A stretch of 64,000 nt of DNA from Bacteroidota bacterium. GTDB lineage: Bacteria; Bacteroidota; Bacteroidia; NS11-12g; UBA9320. A program made the translations under genes and the position numbers. The notes below the pieces were generated by a model. The model made no database searches, was not told the DNA's origin, and was given only the letters and a program-made list of their open reading frames with translations. The stretch is from the NCBI GenBank assembly GCA_947468275.1, contig CANIKO010000008.1:62001-126000 (forward strand), written 5' to 3'. Positions 1,692-18,162 of the stretch are shown here, piece by piece (position 1 is the stretch's first letter; every line of letters begins with the position of its first letter).

Positions 1692-2960
1692 CTATTCTTT
1701 GAACTGAACTTCGCTAAGATGCCGGTATGAATTTTCGACCATAACAATTCCATCGTCTACAATTACGCTTATGGCCAAAGCAATTCCTGTTAGCGACATT
1801 ATGTTAGACGAAAACCCAAATGCATTTAATAAAATAAAAGCAGATGCAACGGCAATCGGAATTTGTATTAGTATTATTAATGCGCTTCGCCAATGGAAAA
1901 GGAAAATTAAAATAACCATAGATACACTTATAAACACCTCGAGTAAAGTGCCTTTTATTGAACCGATGGCCTCCTCAATCAATCCACTTCGGTCATAATC
2001 AATTTTAAATTTCACTCCTTCAGGCAATCCCTTTTGCACTTCTAGCATTTTTAATTTCACATTTTTAATTACGGCGTCTGCATTTTCGCCATAGCGCATT
2101 ACCACTATCCCTCCCACTTTTTCACCTTCACCATTCTCATCAAAAATTCCATACCGAATGTCTCCTCCCATCTGAACAGAGCCAACATCCTTAATTCTTA
2201 TGGGAACATTATTAGAAGTGCTTATAGTAATATTTTCAATTTCACTCATCGATTTTATGTATCCCAGACCTCTCACAATGTAAGATTTATCACTCATTTC
2301 AAATTTCCGTCCGCCAACATCATTATTATTTGATTTCACAGCCTTTAATACATCCATCATCGATAGATTATAATAATTCAATTTTATAGGATCAATAATG
2401 GCTTGGTATTGTTTTTGAAATCCCCCAAAAGATGCAACTTCACTTACACCTGGAACAGTTTGCAACGCAAATTTTATATACCAATCTTGCAATGCACGTT
2501 GTTCACCAAGGTCATAGCCTTTTGCATCCAAAGAATACCAAAAAACATGCCCTACTCCCGTTCCGTCTGGGCCAAGTGTTGGCGATATACCATATGGCAA
2601 GAGTTTCTGTGCAAAGTTTAACCTTTCAGCTACCCGTGTTCTAGCCCAATAAATGTCTACATTATCTTCAAACACAAGATAAACGAAACTCATACCAAAC
2701 ATTGACGCACCTCTAATATTTTTTAATTTTGGTACACCTTGGAGATTTGAAACTAGAGGATATGTAATTTGATCTTCAATTACCTGTGGACTTCGCCCCA
2801 TCCATTCGGTAAAAACAATTACTTGATTTTCAGATAAATCGGGAATGGCATCCACCGGATTATTTTTTACTTCATAGAGGCCCCAGCCTAATAAGCAGAT
2901 GGCAACTAGTAGTACAACTATCCGATTGCGAAGTGAAAATGAAATTAGTTTTTCTACCAT
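1692..2960 (-). CDS. cusA: CusA/CzcA-type RND metal pump, N-terminal part only (TM1-TM4)
   Basis: This 422-residue protein matches only the first part of a heavy-metal RND pump (normally about 1040 residues). It has TM1 (about residues 12-30), the first periplasmic porter domains including GPDGTGVGHVFWY near 130-145, then TM2-TM4, with the TM4 signature ending IVDDGIVMVEN around 398-408. It stops a dozen residues later with TAG, in the cytoplasmic loop before TM5. The missing remainder is encoded at 6735-8645, upstream in transcription and separated by TolC and two adaptor genes. Both fragment ends would be cytoplasmic, so co-assembly is topologically possible. TM4 reads more like CusA (Cu/Ag) than CzcA, because the first Asp of the CzcA DFG motif is absent. 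It lies 138 bp after the adaptor gene and has its own promoter-like sequence. Confidence 0.9.
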   Translation of the reverse strand: MVEKLISFSLRNRIVVLLVAICLLGWGLYEVKNNPVDAIPDLSENQVIVFTEWMGRSPQVIEDQITYPLVSNLQGVPKLKNIRGASMFGMSFVYLVFEDNVDIYWARTRVAERLNFAQKLLPYGISPTLGPDGTGVGHVFWYSLDAKGYDLGEQRALQDWYIKFALQTVPGVSEVASFGGFQKQYQAIIDPIKLNYYNLSMMDVLKAVKSNNNDVGGRKFEMSDKSYIVRGLGYIKSMSEIENITISTSNNVPIRIKDVGSVQMGGDIRYGIFDENGEGEKVGGIVVMRYGENADAVIKNVKLKMLEVQKGLPEGVKFKIDYDRSGLIEEAIGSIKGTLLEVFISVSMVILIFLFHWRSALIILIQIPIAVASAFILLNAFGFSSNIMSLTGIALAISVIVDDGIVMVENSYRHLSEVQFKE

Positions 2961-2977
2961 GTTATGATTGCCTAATA

Positions 2978-3010
2978 CAATTATATTTATTGTTTTTTAT
3001 TTCTGTCAAA
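2978..3010 (-). promoter_or_regulatory. cusA: Possible Bacteroidota promoter for the CusA N-half
   Basis: On the minus strand, TTTG (3010-3007), a 21-base spacer and TATAATTG (2985-2978, one mismatch to TAnnTTTG) lie 17 bases before the ATG at 2960. Every other junction in this operon is an overlap or a short gap apart from the one before the C-half, so a separate promoter here would fit an independently expressed N-half. Confidence 0.35.
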
Positions 3011-3098
3011 TCCATTTTTTTTTAGACAATGTCCCATTTCATTTGAATTAATATGGTTATCCCTTTTATCTAATTCTATTGATTTTGCCAACTATTAT

Positions 3099-4301
3099 TT
3101 AAATTTTCATTCCTTCCATCGGATTTGCGCCTCGTTTAAAAACATACTCACTATTTAGCAAGTAAGCTCCCGTAACTACTATTACTTCCCCAGCTGTAAT
3201 ACCTGATATTATTTCAACCATTTGACTATTCTGCCTTCCAAGTTTTACCATTTTATTTTCAAAAATCCCATCACTATTGCGTACCCAAACATTTGCCCCT
3301 TTGCTATCTTGAATTATAGCATCAATTGGAAGTGCCAAAGTTGTTTTCTTCTCCGTTTGCAGAGAGATATTTGCAAGCATTCCTGGTAAAATTTGTTGAG
3401 AAGGATTCGTAACTTCAAACCTTGCCAATACATATCTTTCCGGTGACTGCACTTGTGGATCAATAAAAATAACCTTACCATTAAATAATTTTTCACTAGT
3501 AGACTCAATAGAAAAATCAGCTTCGGTCCCTTGTTCTATATATTGCAAATAGGGCAAATACACCTGGGCTTCAACCCAAAGCGAATTGAGAGAAGCTAAT
3601 TGAAAAAGATTAGTGCCGAGGTTTACATAATTCCCTTCTACAATATAAATATCACTTACAAACCCGCCTTTAGATGCGAATACTGGTACAATTTGCAAAA
3701 CCTCTTTCGAGATTCTAATTTTATTTATCTGTGATTCGCTCATTCCATAAAGCAGTAATTTATTTTTTGAGGCGGTTCCAATTAACTTTCCTAGAGAATG
3801 GCTTTGCAATGAAATAAGATACTCTTGCTGTGTATTATTTAAGTCTTCACTATAAATTTCATATAATAATTGGCCCTGAGTTATATAGTCCCCAATATTT
3901 TTTACAAATAATTTTTCAATTCTGCCATAAACTCTAGCACTAATGGCCTCAGTTAAATTTTGATCTACTGTCACTTTGCCAGTCAGCGTAATTTCTTTTG
4001 CCATAATATGTTCTCGCAACGTATCGTAGGTAATATTTGCTAACTTTATTTGTTGCTTACTCAATTGAATTTGTCCCACTTTCATGTTATTTTTCTTAAC
4101 CATTATAAGTTCCATATGGCAAATAGGACAAATACCTTCCTTGTTTTCTATAACCTGCGGATCCATGGAACAGGTATAATATTCATTGTCATTTGCCATT
4201 TGCAAATGGTTACCAATGTTATTACACGATATTAAAAAGAAGAAAAAGCAAATAATGCCCCCCCTCCCTATTATTCTTATAATTTTATTTACCTCATTCA
4301 T
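3099..4301 (-). CDS. cusB: CusB-like RND periplasmic adaptor with heavy-metal-binding N-terminus
   Basis: This 400-residue membrane-fusion (HlyD/CusB) lipoprotein has lipobox LISC (Cys26). At residues 41-66 there is a small metal-binding domain, YYTCSMDPQ...CPICHMEL, typical of Cu/Ag efflux adaptors. Barrel-sandwich and beta-barrel segments follow, with a hairpin region in between. Its start codon overlaps the stop of the preceding adaptor by 8 nt (ATGAATGA), pointing to translational coupling. Adaptors of this type join the inner-membrane RND trimer to the TolC channel and pass metal to the pump. Two adaptors in one operon is common in Bacteroidota. The metal-binding motif supports copper or silver as substrate, though this is family inference. 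Confidence 0.9.
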   Translation of the reverse strand: MNEVNKIIRIIGRGGIICFFFFLISCNNIGNHLQMANDNEYYTCSMDPQVIENKEGICPICHMELIMVKKNNMKVGQIQLSKQQIKLANITYDTLREHIMAKEITLTGKVTVDQNLTEAISARVYGRIEKLFVKNIGDYITQGQLLYEIYSEDLNNTQQEYLISLQSHSLGKLIGTASKNKLLLYGMSESQINKIRISKEVLQIVPVFASKGGFVSDIYIVEGNYVNLGTNLFQLASLNSLWVEAQVYLPYLQYIEQGTEADFSIESTSEKLFNGKVIFIDPQVQSPERYVLARFEVTNPSQQILPGMLANISLQTEKKTTLALPIDAIIQDSKGANVWVRNSDGIFENKMVKLGRQNSQMVEIISGITAGEVIVVTGAYLLNSEYVFKRGANPMEGMKI

Positions 4302-5502
4302 CCTCTTTTGCGATTATAAAACTTTCACTATCTACCATATATTGGGCATTAACAGCAATTTGGTCTTCAATGTTTAAACCTTGAATTATCTGAATAAATG
4401 AATCTGCGACAACCCCAGTTCTGATTTTTTTAGTTTGGAAAGCAACTTTCGTTTTTATAAAAACAATTTGCTTTTGGCCAATATTTAGAACTGCTTTTCG
4501 AGGTAACCAAATTCCAGATATTTCATTGGAATTAATTTTTGCATTCACCAGCGTGCCAATTTTCAAATTAGGTTTTACTTCATTTTCTAAATACACCCTT
4601 GCCTTAATTGCTGATGCATTTTGGCCTGTAACAGGTTCAATATATCCGATAACAGCATTTATTGTATTTGTTGGGTTGGTTTCGGATATTAATGAAACTT
4701 TGTCTCCAACTTTGATGCACTTAGCATCTAAAGGAAAAATATTTAATACTGCCCAAATTTTATTGGTATTATAAACAGCAAAAATCGGCTGACCTCTGTC
4801 GATATACATTCCTTCTCTGATTGAAAGTGACGAAGTTTGTGAAGAAGGTATATTTTCAATTTGCCCCTGAGTTGAAGAATTTGATAAATTTCTATTTCCT
4901 GAACTCATGCCATTCCCCATGGATGGCAAAGAATTTTTTACTCCATTGGACAATCCTATATCATGAATATGTCCGCTGTATGGGCTGTAAACAGGCATAG
5001 GATTAATTAATTTCCTTAATATTTCAATTTGCCGAAGTTGTTCATTTGTAACCCCTAGCACTATTAATTTTTGTTTGGATGATTTTATAAGGAGTTGATC
5101 AGGACTTGGATTGTTAAGCAAAAAAATCAGATTCTGCTGTTCAGTTAAAATTTCTGGGCTGTAAACATCCATAATACGTTGGCCTTTATAAACAATTTCA
5201 AAATTATACCTTACATATAATTTTTCAATTCGTCCGTCAAACCGGGCACTAATATTATTAAGCAAACTCGGATCGTATGCTATAACACCAGTTGCTTCTA
5301 TTACGGGAGAAATAGATTTTTGAACTGGTAAAATTGTTTTTACCTCACTAAAAACGGTTTGATTAGCGGGCTGTTCCAATCCGTTTAAATCTCCCGTTGC
5401 CGTTGAAAGATGTTCTGGTTCACTAATATTTTTGCACGATGGAATAATCATCAAGCTAAGCACAATTAGTGAAAAGTATAATACCCCTTGGGCATTAACC
5501 AT
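4294..5502 (-). CDS. cusB: CusB-like RND periplasmic adaptor lipoprotein
   Basis: This is a second membrane-fusion protein of the CusB/HlyD type, about 402 residues. I prefer the ATG at 5502 over the in-frame start at 5538, because it gives a clean lipoprotein signal (MVNAQGVLYF to lipobox IPSC, Cys23) and begins just after the TolC stop. The N-terminal beta-barrel motif NISARFDGRIEKLYV and the C-terminal adaptor motif KIGTLVNAKI are present. A Met/Ser/Asn-rich stretch (about residues 183-210) interrupts the barrel region and could bind Cu or Ag. It lacks the Cys-rich domain of its neighbour. It probably works with TolC (5513-6748) and the split CusA. Confidence 0.88.
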   Translation of the reverse strand: MVNAQGVLYFSLIVLSLMIIPSCKNISEPEHLSTATGDLNGLEQPANQTVFSEVKTILPVQKSISPVIEATGVIAYDPSLLNNISARFDGRIEKLYVRYNFEIVYKGQRIMDVYSPEILTEQQNLIFLLNNPSPDQLLIKSSKQKLIVLGVTNEQLRQIEILRKLINPMPVYSPYSGHIHDIGLSNGVKNSLPSMGNGMSSGNRNLSNSSTQGQIENIPSSQTSSLSIREGMYIDRGQPIFAVYNTNKIWAVLNIFPLDAKCIKVGDKVSLISETNPTNTINAVIGYIEPVTGQNASAIKARVYLENEVKPNLKIGTLVNAKINSNEISGIWLPRKAVLNIGQKQIVFIKTKVAFQTKKIRTGVVADSFIQIIQGLNIEDQIAVNAQYMVDSESFIIAKEDE

Positions 5503-5512
5503 TAACCATTGC

Positions 5513-6748
5513 CTATCGTATTTCCATTTCTCTTTCATAATTTACTTGTAATTTCAGTAATGTATTTAATCGATCCAGCTCATTCATTTTTGCCATACTA
5601 TACATTTTTATTCCATCCAGCACTAAAAATAAATCTTCAGTATTTTGTTCATAGGAGAGCAGTGCTGCCCTATAACTGTTAATATAAGCGGGAATAATAT
5701 TTTGTTTATAATTTACCAATTGATTCTTAGCGGATTGAATTTGAGTTTGCAAGGATGTTACTATTCCAGTAGTTTCATTCACAAGGGATTTTTTTTGAAA
5801 ACTTAAAGCATTGGCTTCATTGTTCAATCCTTTGATATTTGCCTTATATTCTTTGGAGGCAAAAGGTGCAATGGGAATAACCATCATAGCCATTGCAGAA
5901 TATAATTTTGGCATGGGCATTACACTATAAGTTTGCATATGGGTTATTGAAAACCCAAAATCGGGCAATCGTTTTGATTGTTCTACTTTCTGCTGAAGTC
6001 TCACCAAATCAATTCTAGCATCATATTGTTTTATATCGCTTCGCGAAGAAGTAATTAATGCGGTGTCGTTTAATTGTACCTCATAATTTTTGGGTTGTAA
6101 TGTCGTATCAATTTCAAATACATAGGATTGATTACAATTCATTAAAGTATTAATCTCTGTATTTTTCATTTTTATATCGGCTAGAAACATAGTTTGCATG
6201 TTTCGCAATTCAAATAAATCAGCTTGCGCCTTATAAATATTGCTAAGTTTCTCTTTGTTATAGGTAAACCTTACCCGTGCTACTTTTAACACATACTGAA
6301 GTATTGAATCGGTTTGCACTAAAACCTCATATTTTTTTTTCAATACAATCCATTCATAATAATTTTGTTTTGCCATTGTATACATTCCATTTTTACTAGA
6401 CCCTTTCCCTTGCTTTTCGACAGATGACATACCCTGCATTAAATTATAATTAGCCTTTTGTTTGGTTGGGTTAGGTATCATTTGTTGGCTTGAAAACATC
6501 CACATACCTCTTCTAAAATCATTGTACGGCGTTTGCCAAGGACCAGTAGTAAAAGTAGTTGGCATCCAACTTTTTGCGCCTTCCGAATAGTTACTAATAG
6601 CACTTATTTGCTCATCAAACATTTTAAGCATTGGATTATTTTTCTCAATCCTATTTAAAATAGAATCAAGGGGAAGCACTTGAGAAATTACTCCAAAAGG
6701 TAAAAAGCAAAAGACAATTACCAATTTTATATTTTTAAATATCTTCAT
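5513..6748 (-). CDS. TolC-family outer-membrane efflux protein (CusC role)
   Basis: This is a roughly 411-residue TolC-like protein. The ATG at 6748 gives a normal signal peptide (MKIFKNIKLV...VISQ); an upstream ATG at 6775 would only add residues encoded inside the CusA C-half. The gene overlaps the CusA C-half stop by 14 nt. Long amphipathic helices rich in Gln, Asn, Lys and Leu fit the periplasmic helical barrel. Met-rich stretches (MWMFSSQQMIP, MPMPKLYSAMAMM) fit metal efflux. In Bacteroidota this gene normally follows a complete cusA; here it follows only the C-terminal part. Confidence 0.88.
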   Translation of the reverse strand: MKIFKNIKLVIVFCFLPFGVISQVLPLDSILNRIEKNNPMLKMFDEQISAISNYSEGAKSWMPTTFTTGPWQTPYNDFRRGMWMFSSQQMIPNPTKQKANYNLMQGMSSVEKQGKGSSKNGMYTMAKQNYYEWIVLKKKYEVLVQTDSILQYVLKVARVRFTYNKEKLSNIYKAQADLFELRNMQTMFLADIKMKNTEINTLMNCNQSYVFEIDTTLQPKNYEVQLNDTALITSSRSDIKQYDARIDLVRLQQKVEQSKRLPDFGFSITHMQTYSVMPMPKLYSAMAMMVIPIAPFASKEYKANIKGLNNEANALSFQKKSLVNETTGIVTSLQTQIQSAKNQLVNYKQNIIPAYINSYRAALLSYEQNTEDLFLVLDGIKMYSMAKMNELDRLNTLLKLQVNYEREMEIR

Positions 6749-8645
6749 TATTTCCTGCCAATAAAATTTTACCATGTATTTTCAATTCTCTTAATTTTAC
6801 CATTTCAAAAACTACTGGTGTGACTAATAACACATAAATTGTAGAAGTAATTACACCCCCAATTAATGGTATCGTTATTGGCAACATTACATCGCTGCCA
6901 GCCCCTTTTGACCATAGTATTGGGACTAAACCAAAAAGCGAAACCGAAACGGTCATCAATTTAGGACGTAAACGCTGAACAGCTCCATCCATGATGTATT
7001 TTCGCAAATCCTCTTTTGAAATGGTTTGCGATGAATTTCCTTTATCGGACACCAATTTTTCCATGTATTCATTCAAATAAATCATCATTAGCATTGCAGT
7101 TTCCGCAGCCACACCAAATAAGGCTATAAATCCTACGGCTACTGCCACAGATAAATTAACACCATAAAAATACACCATGTAAACACCCCCAATTAAAGCG
7201 AATGGCACAGTTATCATTGTAAGTAATGCTTCTTTTAATGATTTATAGGTAAAATATAGAACCATAAAAATTATTAGAATCACTATTGGCATAATCATCT
7301 TTAATGTTTTGTTGGCACGAATTTGATTTTCCCATTGTCCGCTCCATTCAAGATTATACCCTTTTGGAAGTTTAGTAAACATTTTATTTAATTTAGCCTG
7401 TGCTTCCTCAACAGTGCTACCTAAATCACGGTCGCGAACATTAAATAAAATTGTTCCTCGTAACATTGCATTTTCCGAATTTATCATAGGTGGGCCTTCA
7501 GAAATAGATATGGAGGCTATTGTTGAAAGTGGAATAGTACCGTAATTCATGGTTTTCACTGGAATTTGATTAATGGCTTCTAAACTATTTCTATAATCTT
7601 GAGCAAATCGAGCATTCACAGTAAAACGTTCTCTCCCTTCAATTGTAGTTGTAAGATTCATCCCTCCTAATGCCGTTTCTACATACATATTTACATCATC
7701 TACACTCAAACCGTATTTACCAATCTCATCTTTCTTTATAGTAATATCAACGTATCTGCCCCCCGTTATCGGTTCCACATATAAATCTTTAATTCCATAA
7801 ATCCCTTGTAATTCATTTTTCATTCGGGTAGCCAAGGCATAAATGGAATCTAGGTTTTGTCCGTAAATTTTTAATCCCACATCTGTCCTTATTCCAGTAG
7901 AAAGCATATTTATTCGGTTGATGATGGGTTGAGTAAAACCGTTCACAACCCCCGGAATCTGTAATTTAGCATTTAGTTCATTAAGGATGTCATCTTTAGT
8001 TATATCGGTCCGCCATTTTGATTGGGGTTTTAATAAAATAATAGTTTCAATCATACTTATCGGTGAATTATCCGTTGCGGTGTTTGCTCTACCAGCCTTT
8101 CCCAATACATTTTGAACCTCCGGTACCGACTTTATAATTTTATCCTGAACCTGTAAGATTCTTTTTACTTCGGAGTTGGAAACATCAGGCAAAGTAACTG
8201 GCATAAATAAAATGGACCCCTCATCTAAAGGTGGCATAAATTCTGTACCCATTCTAAACATCATCGCAATACCAATAATCAAAGCAATAATATTTATTCC
8301 AAGAACTGTTTTGCGCCATCGTAAACACCATAAAATTATAGGTGAATAAATTTTCTCCAAAATTCGTGTGACAGGATTTGCACTTTCAGGTTTCAGATTC
8401 CCTTTAAGTAAAAAAGAAATTAAAACTGGGGCTAATGTTATAGCTAAAAATGCGTCTATAATTAGGATGAACGTTTTGGTCCATGCGAGGGGATGAAACA
8501 ATTTCCCTTCAATACCAGTTAATAAAAAAACAGGTAAAAACGAAGCAATAACTACAATTGTTGAGTAAAAAACTCCTGGCCCCACTTGCCTTGAAGCTTT
8601 TTCTATAATTTTTAAACGTTGTTTTTTATCCATTTTTAAATCCAT
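6735..8645 (-). CDS. cusA: CusA/CzcA-type RND metal pump, C-terminal part only (TM5-TM12)
   Basis: These 636 residues begin at MDLKMDKKQRLKIIEKASRQVGP, the end of the cytoplasmic loop of CusA, and run through TM5 (about 26-45), TM6, the second periplasmic porter region and TM7-TM12. Added to the 422-residue fragment at 1692-2960 this makes 1058 residues, the normal size of a whole pump. Met198 (ISMIET), Met247 (INMLSTG) and Met329 (GGMNLT) sit where I would place the CusA methionine cluster for Cu(I)/Ag(I), although I could not align them formally. TM10 keeps GFIALFGVAAE. Upstream in-frame codons end at a TGA five codons before the ATG, so there is no hidden N-terminal extension. Both halves look intact and free of frameshifts. 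Confidence 0.9.
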   Translation of the reverse strand: MDLKMDKKQRLKIIEKASRQVGPGVFYSTIVVIASFLPVFLLTGIEGKLFHPLAWTKTFILIIDAFLAITLAPVLISFLLKGNLKPESANPVTRILEKIYSPIILWCLRWRKTVLGINIIALIIGIAMMFRMGTEFMPPLDEGSILFMPVTLPDVSNSEVKRILQVQDKIIKSVPEVQNVLGKAGRANTATDNSPISMIETIILLKPQSKWRTDITKDDILNELNAKLQIPGVVNGFTQPIINRINMLSTGIRTDVGLKIYGQNLDSIYALATRMKNELQGIYGIKDLYVEPITGGRYVDITIKKDEIGKYGLSVDDVNMYVETALGGMNLTTTIEGRERFTVNARFAQDYRNSLEAINQIPVKTMNYGTIPLSTIASISISEGPPMINSENAMLRGTILFNVRDRDLGSTVEEAQAKLNKMFTKLPKGYNLEWSGQWENQIRANKTLKMIMPIVILIIFMVLYFTYKSLKEALLTMITVPFALIGGVYMVYFYGVNLSVAVAVGFIALFGVAAETAMLMMIYLNEYMEKLVSDKGNSSQTISKEDLRKYIMDGAVQRLRPKLMTVSVSLFGLVPILWSKGAGSDVMLPITIPLIGGVITSTIYVLLVTPVVFEMVKLRELKIHGKILLAGNNEDI

Positions 8646-8765: not shown

Positions 8766-9152
8766 TCAAATAAGAAAGACCCTGTCCAAGAGATAAATAG
8801 GAACTTTGGGTTTGAACTGCGGTGGAAGATAAAAATCAGAAAAAGTATAGTTTAGTTTGACTTTAGGTGCCACTAAACTCTGATTAACATGTTTAAAATA
8901 AATTTGAAGATGAGTAGATTTAAAAATAAATTGATTAATTTTAGCTTGATCAATTTTAGCTTTGAATATAGTTGTTTTGTCTTTGCAGCAACTTGATTTC
9001 ATTGCTTTTTCACCACAATCACATTTCTGTTTTTCAGTAGAAAAGAATTTAATGGATGAAATTTCGCCACCGCAGTAATGCACGGTAATTGCCATTCCTG
9101 AGTTAGAAATCAAGAAAAAAACAAGAAGCAATATGGCAGATATCCGTTTCAA
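8766..9152 (-). CDS. HYC_CC_PP family secreted protein
   Basis: This 128-residue exported protein has a signal peptide (MKRISAILLLVFFLISNSG), then HYC (25-27), CDC (44-46), CC (55-56) and PP (110-111). These motifs define the HYC_CC_PP family, which in Bacteroidota usually lies directly before CusA/CzcA genes. The cysteines suggest metal handling, but no biochemical role is established that I know of. The start codon is TTG at 9152; no ATG gives a signal peptide. A TATATTTG promoter element lies only 8 bases upstream. Its presence marks where the cusA N-terminus would be expected in the usual operon order. Confidence 0.82.
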   Translation of the reverse strand: MKRISAILLLVFFLISNSGMAITVHYCGGEISSIKFFSTEKQKCDCGEKAMKSSCCKDKTTIFKAKIDQAKINQFIFKSTHLQIYFKHVNQSLVAPKVKLNYTFSDFYLPPQFKPKVPIYLLDRVFLI

Positions 9153-16017: not shown

Positions 16018-18162
16018 TTATCTAACCGAGTTTTCATCAGTGGAAACCACTACCTTTTGAAACCAAACTCTTCCGCCGCTATTCACTTTTACCAAATAAA
16101 CACCTGCATTCACCTCTAAATTAATAATATTAACTTTTTCAACAGGTTCTACTTTTTTAACCCTTTTGCCCAACAAGTCATATACCTCTAAAGAAATATC
16201 CTTGGCTGGATTATCAATTTCTAAAGTAAAGTTTCCACTGTTTGGGTTGGGATAAATTTTGAAACCTGAGGATTTTGAAATATTAGAAACTCCAAGAGAT
16301 ATTGAAATATCTTTACATGTTATAGAAAAACAATCGGCTGCGTTAATCACTTTTAGGCAAGCCTTGTATTTTCCTATTTTTGGGTAAGTATATGTAATAT
16401 CTTTTACTATTGAACTATCACCATTACCAAAATACCATTTATAACTGGTATTGCCTAATTGGGTGGCTTTGAATTCAACCGTATTTTTATTTAAAGTGTA
16501 ACTAAAATCAGATTTGGGATTTGCATTTACTGTTACTGATTTGGTTATGGAATCTGAACATTTTCCAGTTAAAGTTGCTACCAACGTAACATTATAGGTC
16601 ATCGAAATCTCTGGTATAATGTAAAAATGAGATGGGGAATTATCGACAGATATTTTCCCGTCACCAAATTTCCATCTATATTTTAAATTGCTTTTTGGCT
16701 CAGATATGTTAATAAAATGAACACTATCCAATTCGCAAACATCAATTACATCAAAATTAGGTTTAGGATTGGCAACAATTATATCTGTTTTTAGACTATC
16801 AATTCTGCCGAAATAATAGAGATTTAATTTAACTGTGAAAGTTCCAGACTTTGAATAAATATGGCTTATATTCTGGGGTTTAGTTGAAGTATTAAATGCA
16901 CCTGAACCCGGGTCGCCAAAATCCCAATTCACAGAATCTGGATAATTATAATCTTCAATTGTAAAAAAGCTCGTATCCCCGGCACATGATGATTTTAAGG
17001 TAATAGCGGTAACATATTTTTTTAAAAAAATAGGAACAAAATTTGGCAACCCCATTAGTGAAGTTTTACCGGATAAATAAACCGCATTTTTTCGGAACCT
17101 GCATTTCACCCCTAATGAATCAGGGGCATGAATTACATGTAAATATCCATTGCCACCTTCCTCAACATATATCTTTCCATCAGAGCCAAGTTGCAATGGC
17201 AAACGACCATTTATGGCACTGCTATCTATTAATTTCTTCGATTGGATGAATTCCAATTTTGAGTTGGCCTGTGCCTTGTATTGATAAATCTTTCGCTTTT
17301 TACCTTGGCTTACGTATAAATAATTATTTAATTGCGAAAACTCAACAGAAAACACAAAGGCATTTTTATCTTCATTTACAATCCAAATATTACTTAAAAG
17401 TCCTGTTGAATCATTAAAACTTGCAAATAAAATTGAATCAGTTAGGTAGGTTGCATAAGCAATTTTCTTTCCATCAGGTGAAATCTTTAAATACCCTTCA
17501 CCTCTACCAATATCTTTATATCCAGTTTTAGTAGTAACAGGGCTTTTTAGACCTGAAGAGGTTAATTGCCAAGCAAAAATCGAATCAGATCTTGATGAAG
17601 AGTCATTAATGAATGAATGCAATTTGTTGGAAATTACCCAATAATCTTTTCCATTGGCATGCTTTGTCCCTGTTAATCTTTGCCCAGAAAACATTAGCAA
17701 AGGAATTCTTCTTTTTCCTTGTTCAACATCCCCCTTACCTGAATTTAAGCGCATGTTAATTATTGAATAATGAAGTAAGTTGGTCTCGAATCCTTTATAA
17801 GAAATACCTTCTGTTGTAAATAAATAAAATATATGAGCTGAATCAGGTAAAGGCACAATAAGTGCCGATTGATAATTACTTACATCTGTAATATACCTTT
17901 CATCTTTACTATTAGGCATCAGTGTATGAGTGCTATCATAAATCGAATATCCATTGGTATAGAAGAGCAATTTACCATCAGGGGTACAAATACTTGCCGA
18001 ACCACCTGAACTTGATAACTTACTATTTGTTAGTCCTTTTGGAGAACCTGACTGAAAACTTAATCCGGCATTGGTTCCAAAATACCAAATATTTGCTTCT
18101 TTTTGAGAAAAACATTGAATTGAATTAAGTAATAGAAACGATAAAAAAATCTGCCTCATCAT
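16018..18162 (-). CDS. T9SS-sorted secreted protein with propeller-like region and PKD domains
   Basis: About 714 residues. The annotated start could be ATG 18171, but a -7 element ends only 2 bases before it, so I favour the downstream MMRQIF start at 18162. After the signal peptide (to FSQ) comes a region of about 370 residues of KWD-type propeller repeats (ISPDGKKIAYATYL, LGSDGKIYVEEGG). PKD-like domains follow, with the WDFGDPGSG, YRWKFGDG and YKWYFGNGDSS motifs. The last 80 residues are a type A sorting domain (FKIYPNPNSGNFTLEI, AGVYLVKV). The protein is probably surface-exposed; no enzyme motif is visible. It belongs to the segment bracketed by tgt 3' ends. Confidence 0.8.
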   Translation of the reverse strand: MMRQIFLSFLLLNSIQCFSQKEANIWYFGTNAGLSFQSGSPKGLTNSKLSSSGGSASICTPDGKLLFYTNGYSIYDSTHTLMPNSKDERYITDVSNYQSALIVPLPDSAHIFYLFTTEGISYKGFETNLLHYSIINMRLNSGKGDVEQGKRRIPLLMFSGQRLTGTKHANGKDYWVISNKLHSFINDSSSRSDSIFAWQLTSSGLKSPVTTKTGYKDIGRGEGYLKISPDGKKIAYATYLTDSILFASFNDSTGLLSNIWIVNEDKNAFVFSVEFSQLNNYLYVSQGKKRKIYQYKAQANSKLEFIQSKKLIDSSAINGRLPLQLGSDGKIYVEEGGNGYLHVIHAPDSLGVKCRFRKNAVYLSGKTSLMGLPNFVPIFLKKYVTAITLKSSCAGDTSFFTIEDYNYPDSVNWDFGDPGSGAFNTSTKPQNISHIYSKSGTFTVKLNLYYFGRIDSLKTDIIVANPKPNFDVIDVCELDSVHFINISEPKSNLKYRWKFGDGKISVDNSPSHFYIIPEISMTYNVTLVATLTGKCSDSITKSVTVNANPKSDFSYTLNKNTVEFKATQLGNTSYKWYFGNGDSSIVKDITYTYPKIGKYKACLKVINAADCFSITCKDISISLGVSNISKSSGFKIYPNPNSGNFTLEIDNPAKDISLEVYDLLGKRVKKVEPVEKVNIINLEVNAGVYLVKVNSGGRVWFQKVVVSTDENSVR

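Follow-up and report, generated by a model that had tools for sequence, protein, structure and literature searches.

How did a CusA-type metal pump come to be encoded as two pieces that stand at opposite ends of one operon, and in the reverse order? The question is raised by a stretch of 64,000 nucleotides of Bacteroidota DNA (hereafter the window), in which transcription of the minus strand runs through HYC_CC_PP, the C-terminal piece of the pump (C), TolC, CusB, CusB and, last, the N-terminal piece (N). TolC and two CusB genes, as in the tripartite operons of CusA, thus sit between the two halves of the permease (Table 1). It has to be asked whether the halves amount to one complete pump, when they were separated, and how they came to exchange places.

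Two chains that tile one CusA

Table 1. Features of the split-pump operon in the window, in order of transcription.
Feature	Position	Strand	Basis
HYC_CC_PP family protein, first gene of the operon	8766..9152	-	NF047658, E 1.9e-19; same position in L135 and L026
C chain of CusA-type pump, 636 aa	6735..8645	-	TIGR00914 431-1041; PF00873 413-1020
TolC-family outer membrane factor	5513..6775	-	PF02321
CusB-type periplasmic adaptor 1	4294..5538	-	PF16576
CusB-type periplasmic adaptor 2, with heavy-metal-binding domain	3099..4301	-	PF16576, PF19335
Decayed remnant of small heavy-metal-binding lipoprotein (hmbd) gene	2987..3055	-	Peptide HINSNEMGHCLKKNGFDRNKKQ* against HHQINSDIMGQCPTCKMDLTKLTKH* in L135
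Possible own promoter of N gene, Bacteroidetes-type, weak	2978..3010	-	TTTG-N21-TATAATTG
N chain of CusA-type pump, 422 aa	1692..2960	-	TIGR00914 1-426; PF00873 2-415

The two chains match adjoining parts of TIGR00914, the CusA/CzcA model of 1051 positions, N with 460.7 bits (E 9e-138) and C with 608.1 bits (E 3e-182), E-values that exclude a chance match. A full-length match is reached by N and C jointly, either chain alone falling below the 701-bit cut-off. Placed against structures of E. coli CusA, N ends at about residue 423 while C begins at about residue 427 and runs to 1041, so that the two tile CusA almost end to end, with no part missing or duplicated. The break falls after TM4 and before TM5, in a loop that we take from known RND topology to be cytoplasmic; N carries TM1-TM4 and the PN1, PN2 and DN periplasmic part, and C carries TM5-TM12 with PC1, PC2 and DC. 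AlphaFold models of each chain alone are of moderate confidence (pLDDT 64-67), and Foldseek searches with these moderate-confidence models gave CusA as the best match for N and for C. By sequence, the pair belongs to the CusA family without its one-chain feature: HME-RND permeases are single polypeptides, whereas here there are two open reading frames, three genes apart. A whole cusA closely related to the pair is absent from the window's genome; the HME/RND pumps that score next are whole, with identities of only about 20-40%.

These results agree with the initial annotation of this DNA, which had described a two-chain RND pump cut in the cytoplasmic TM4/TM5 loop and away from the TM6/TM7 duplication boundary, each piece having its own start and stop, with the halves reversed at the ends of the operon and HYC_CC_PP before the C half. 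Its term “circularly permuted pump” misleads, however, since the permutation affects gene order alone and each chain has the usual termini and topology.

The TolC gene overlaps the C gene by 41 bases, and N is probably carried on one transcript with the rest of the operon. A candidate promoter of its own matches 9 of 10 consensus positions, and 1.5% of shuffles match equally well. As this candidate is present in the window only, being absent from the relatives, and overlaps the decayed hmbd remnant, we place little weight on it.

A fission shared across Bacteroidota

A search of relatives for the same split, as had been proposed at the outset, found N as a separate open reading frame in 77 of the 80 closest loci from GTDB species genomes; in the other three (L092, L097 and L104) the permease is whole. 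The usual order in these loci is N-C-TolC-CusB-CusB, with N and C touching at a median gap of 2 bases. A scan of 395 genomes across the phylum placed all matches above 60% identity in frames of 425-475 aa, and matches at or below 60% were nearly all whole; the scan covered Bacteroidota only, and independent splits may thus exist elsewhere. The same cut is common to a large clade of the phylum that takes in Flavobacterium, Cytophaga, Runella, Chitinophagaceae, Haliscomenobacter and others. Both halves also stand as separate annotated genes on finished plasmids from cultured Runella slithyformis, Haliscomenobacter hydrossis and Adhaeribacter swui (pRUNSL02, pHALHY01 and an A. swui plasmid), where RefSeq names each half “efflux RND transporter permease subunit”. 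On the plasmids of R. slithyformis and H. hydrossis a multicopper oxidase gene lies near the split pump.

Some genomes carry more than one such operon. In G203 three split-pump operons lie close together (L142 3845-17517 and L143 8584-16130). Two of these form a tandem, and in the first no TolC was recognised; G310 likewise carries three. At another locus (L145 5054-9523, on the operon's strand) several small HYC_CC_PP-like and heavy-metal-binding open reading frames are found upstream of the split pump.

A tree of concatenated N and C sequences recovers a single clade of split pumps with support of 100/100. Nested within this clade are the three whole pumps. To group them with the outgroup whole pumps is rejected (AU p 4.8e-5), and these three are therefore most simply read as re-fusions. 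The deepest split row, L147, which sits on a long branch, was left out of the careful tree, and it is thus for the other rows that the split is best supported as a single event. The re-fused pumps are joined at the same loop (L092 10001-13153 and L104 10001-13153, 1051 aa; L097 968-4294, a 1109-aa frame). On these trees the split appears as one ancient fission, inherited and transferred across Bacteroidota and followed by one later re-fusion. It is an ancient and conserved trait of many Bacteroidota, older than the reordering of the operon.

Reordering of the operon and other readings of the split

The permuted order, C-TolC-CusB-CusB-N, is found in the window and in seven other genomes as far as their contigs reach, two of these (L027 and L035) displaying it in part only, up to contig ends. 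The permuted clade (the window, L135, L026, L029, L140, L141 and L035) has support of 100/99 and is joined by L027 in a larger tree; in both the N-only and the C-only tree, one change suffices for the permuted order. The congener L135 is 93% identical over both chains and shares the upstream neighbours and chromosomal site of the window. By contrast, L141 comes from another class and has a GC content of 56% against 34% in the window, differences that suggest horizontal transfer. In the permuted operon of L141 a CusF-like protein with a heavy-metal-binding tail precedes C (16484-16942).

What travelled with N gives an indication of how the order changed. An intact hmbd lipoprotein gene lies directly before N in five permuted loci (L135, L026, L027, L029 and L140). 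A gene of the hmbd type likewise occupies the position ahead of N in L153 and L157, which are unpermuted, and in L096, which is ordered T-B-B-hmbd-N-C (T, TolC; B, CusB). As hmbd precedes N in permuted and unpermuted operons alike, N moved together with this neighbour. The reordering, from hmbd-N-C-T-B-B to C-T-B-B-hmbd-N, is a single later event. Because the hmbd gene travels with N, the best-fitting route is probably tandem duplication of the operon with loss of outer parts: a head-to-tail duplication of hmbd-N-C-T-B-B, from which different outer parts were lost, would give both rotated orders. Support for L096 as sister to the permuted clade is weak (84/43), so that the case for this route draws mainly on the hmbd neighbour. 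Two irregular genes occur in these loci: the TolC gene of L096 is broken into two open reading frames (6007-7335), and in L027 CusB is separated from the hmbd-N pair by a 414-aa open reading frame (2967-4211) that does not resemble the efflux genes.

Alternatively, N may have been relocated together with hmbd by transposition or by integration of a circular operon, an account that we doubt but that has an appreciable chance of being correct. Relocation and duplication with loss both predict hmbd-N after CusB, and no second operon remains at the site; tblastn found no remnants of N between HYC and C, or of C after N. However, L096 has the same order rotated in a different way, and split operons do occur in tandem, in L142, both of which are expected from head-to-tail arrays. 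We therefore prefer duplication with loss as the route of reordering. The initial annotation had listed it among several possible origins and had let split and reordering arise together, which is contradicted by the older split, with N and C adjacent, in the large Bacteroidota clade.

Where the halves are adjacent, the two-chain form could be only apparent if programmed frameshifting or readthrough produced a single polypeptide. In many of these relatives N and C share 1-11 bases or lie almost end to end, as such a mechanism would have it, but the gaps extend up to 591 bases, and the reading frame from N (419-447 aa in length) to C is 0, 1 or 2 in 15, 26 and 37 of the 78 adjacent pairs. Since all three frame relations occur, N and C are two genes and not one frameshifted gene; in the permuted clade, moreover, the halves are at least three genes apart and in reverse order. 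We regard a product of frameshifting or readthrough as very unlikely.

The chance is smaller still that a normal cusA operon was wrongly assembled, or that two copies were collapsed into one; misassembly had been named at first as one possible origin. The window's genome is indeed a draft of 32 contigs, but the locus lies about 62 kb inside its contig (C8), the same order recurs in the separately assembled L135, L026, L029, L140 and L141 and partly in L027 and L035, and the split itself is present in finished plasmids. Misassembly was rejected on the ground that the order is shared by seven other genomes, one of them a congener that has it at the same site in the chromosome. Equally negligible is the idea that these are decaying halves of a dead pump retained by chance: each half alone lacks part of the proton relay, but both reading frames are intact, conservation is deep, functional residues are invariant or nearly so, and dN/dS between the window and L135 is 0.029 for N and 0.038 for C, lower than for TolC and CusB of the same operon. 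The distances of N and C are correlated (r = 0.955), and both halves are under strong purifying selection and co-inherited.

The predicted pump and its relation to known systems

In E. coli CusA the Cu(I) ligands are M573, M623, M672 and E625, and D405 forms hydrogen bonds with E939 and K984 in a proton relay that fails, stopping transport, on mutation of any one of the three (PMC8092243). Equivalents of the three methionines and of E625 are present on C, and the relay is divided between the chains, with D405 on N and E939 and K984 on C, so that the pump should work only with assembly in trans. All rows of the tree set have D405, and all split rows that extend to the sites concerned have M573, M623, M672 and E939; K984 is kept in most split rows and is V or L in five. 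The methionine relay pairs M410-M501, M403-M486, M391-M1009 and M271-M755 are not retained as a set: M391 (on N) and M1009 remain as the only pair, M410 (also on N) is present without M501, and the window differs from CusA at M271, M403, M486, M501 and M755. As several of these positions differ, the membrane path is presumably not that of E. coli CusA, and as the membrane pairs are mostly not conserved, periplasmic uptake seems favoured over a cytosolic route.

We consider it highly probable that the window encodes a two-chain CusA-type (HME-RND) exporter of Cu(I)/Ag(I) that stems from one ancient fission in the TM4/TM5 loop and was later reordered. Both assembly in trans and the Cu(I)/Ag(I) substrate are predictions from sequence. 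The N (TM1-4) and C (TM5-12) chains would insert separately into the membrane and pair through TM4-TM5 contact and the relay residues into one RND protomer; three rebuilt protomers would form a trimer, joined by TolC and the two CusB adaptors, and the assembled trimer would use protons to export periplasmic Cu(I)/Ag(I). As the halves are separate gene products and both G203 and G310 hold three split operons, it is conceivable, though improbable, that halves from different operons pair into hybrid pumps, mixing metal or adaptor specificities or gating assembly via the N chain.

This operon is a natural experiment in how a proton-driven transporter of 12 helices can be divided and yet retained, with one fission in a loop between helices, the reordering of gene pieces and one re-fusion all legible in living genomes. 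It predicts an RND protomer that assembles from TM1-4 and TM5-12 pieces with an inter-chain proton relay, which would be useful for engineering. Automated annotation renders many such pumps, probably functional, as two partial-looking permeases.

The open-access (PMC) literature yielded no published account of a split or fissioned HME-RND or CusA pump, and open-access titles and abstracts searched for separately expressed RND halves or for HYC_CC_PP with CusA held nothing on a split CusA. The pump of the window shares with E. coli CusA (CusCBA, HME-RND, TIGR00914) its family by sequence and Foldseek, the residues M573/M623/M672/E625 and D405/E939/K984, and TolC-type and CusB-type partners; it differs in having two chains in place of one of 1047 aa, in several methionine-relay residues, in its two CusB genes and in its operon order. 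Within the RND superfamily, SecD/SecF and the fused SecDF are known both as two chains and as one, but SecD and SecF divide at the ancient TM6/TM7 boundary, whereas the present cut lies in the TM4/TM5 loop and splits the relay asymmetrically. The heteromeric RND pumps MdtB/MdtC also combine two different RND polypeptides in one pump, each a whole RND protein, while the chains described here are parts of one. Split-Doa10 of Kluyveromyces likewise arose by natural fission in a cytosolic loop of a polytopic membrane protein and is conserved in its clade, and its halves have been proven by experiment to assemble into an active enzyme; in contrast to the window's pump, it is a eukaryotic ubiquitin ligase whose halves are adjacent and in order (PMC3464245).
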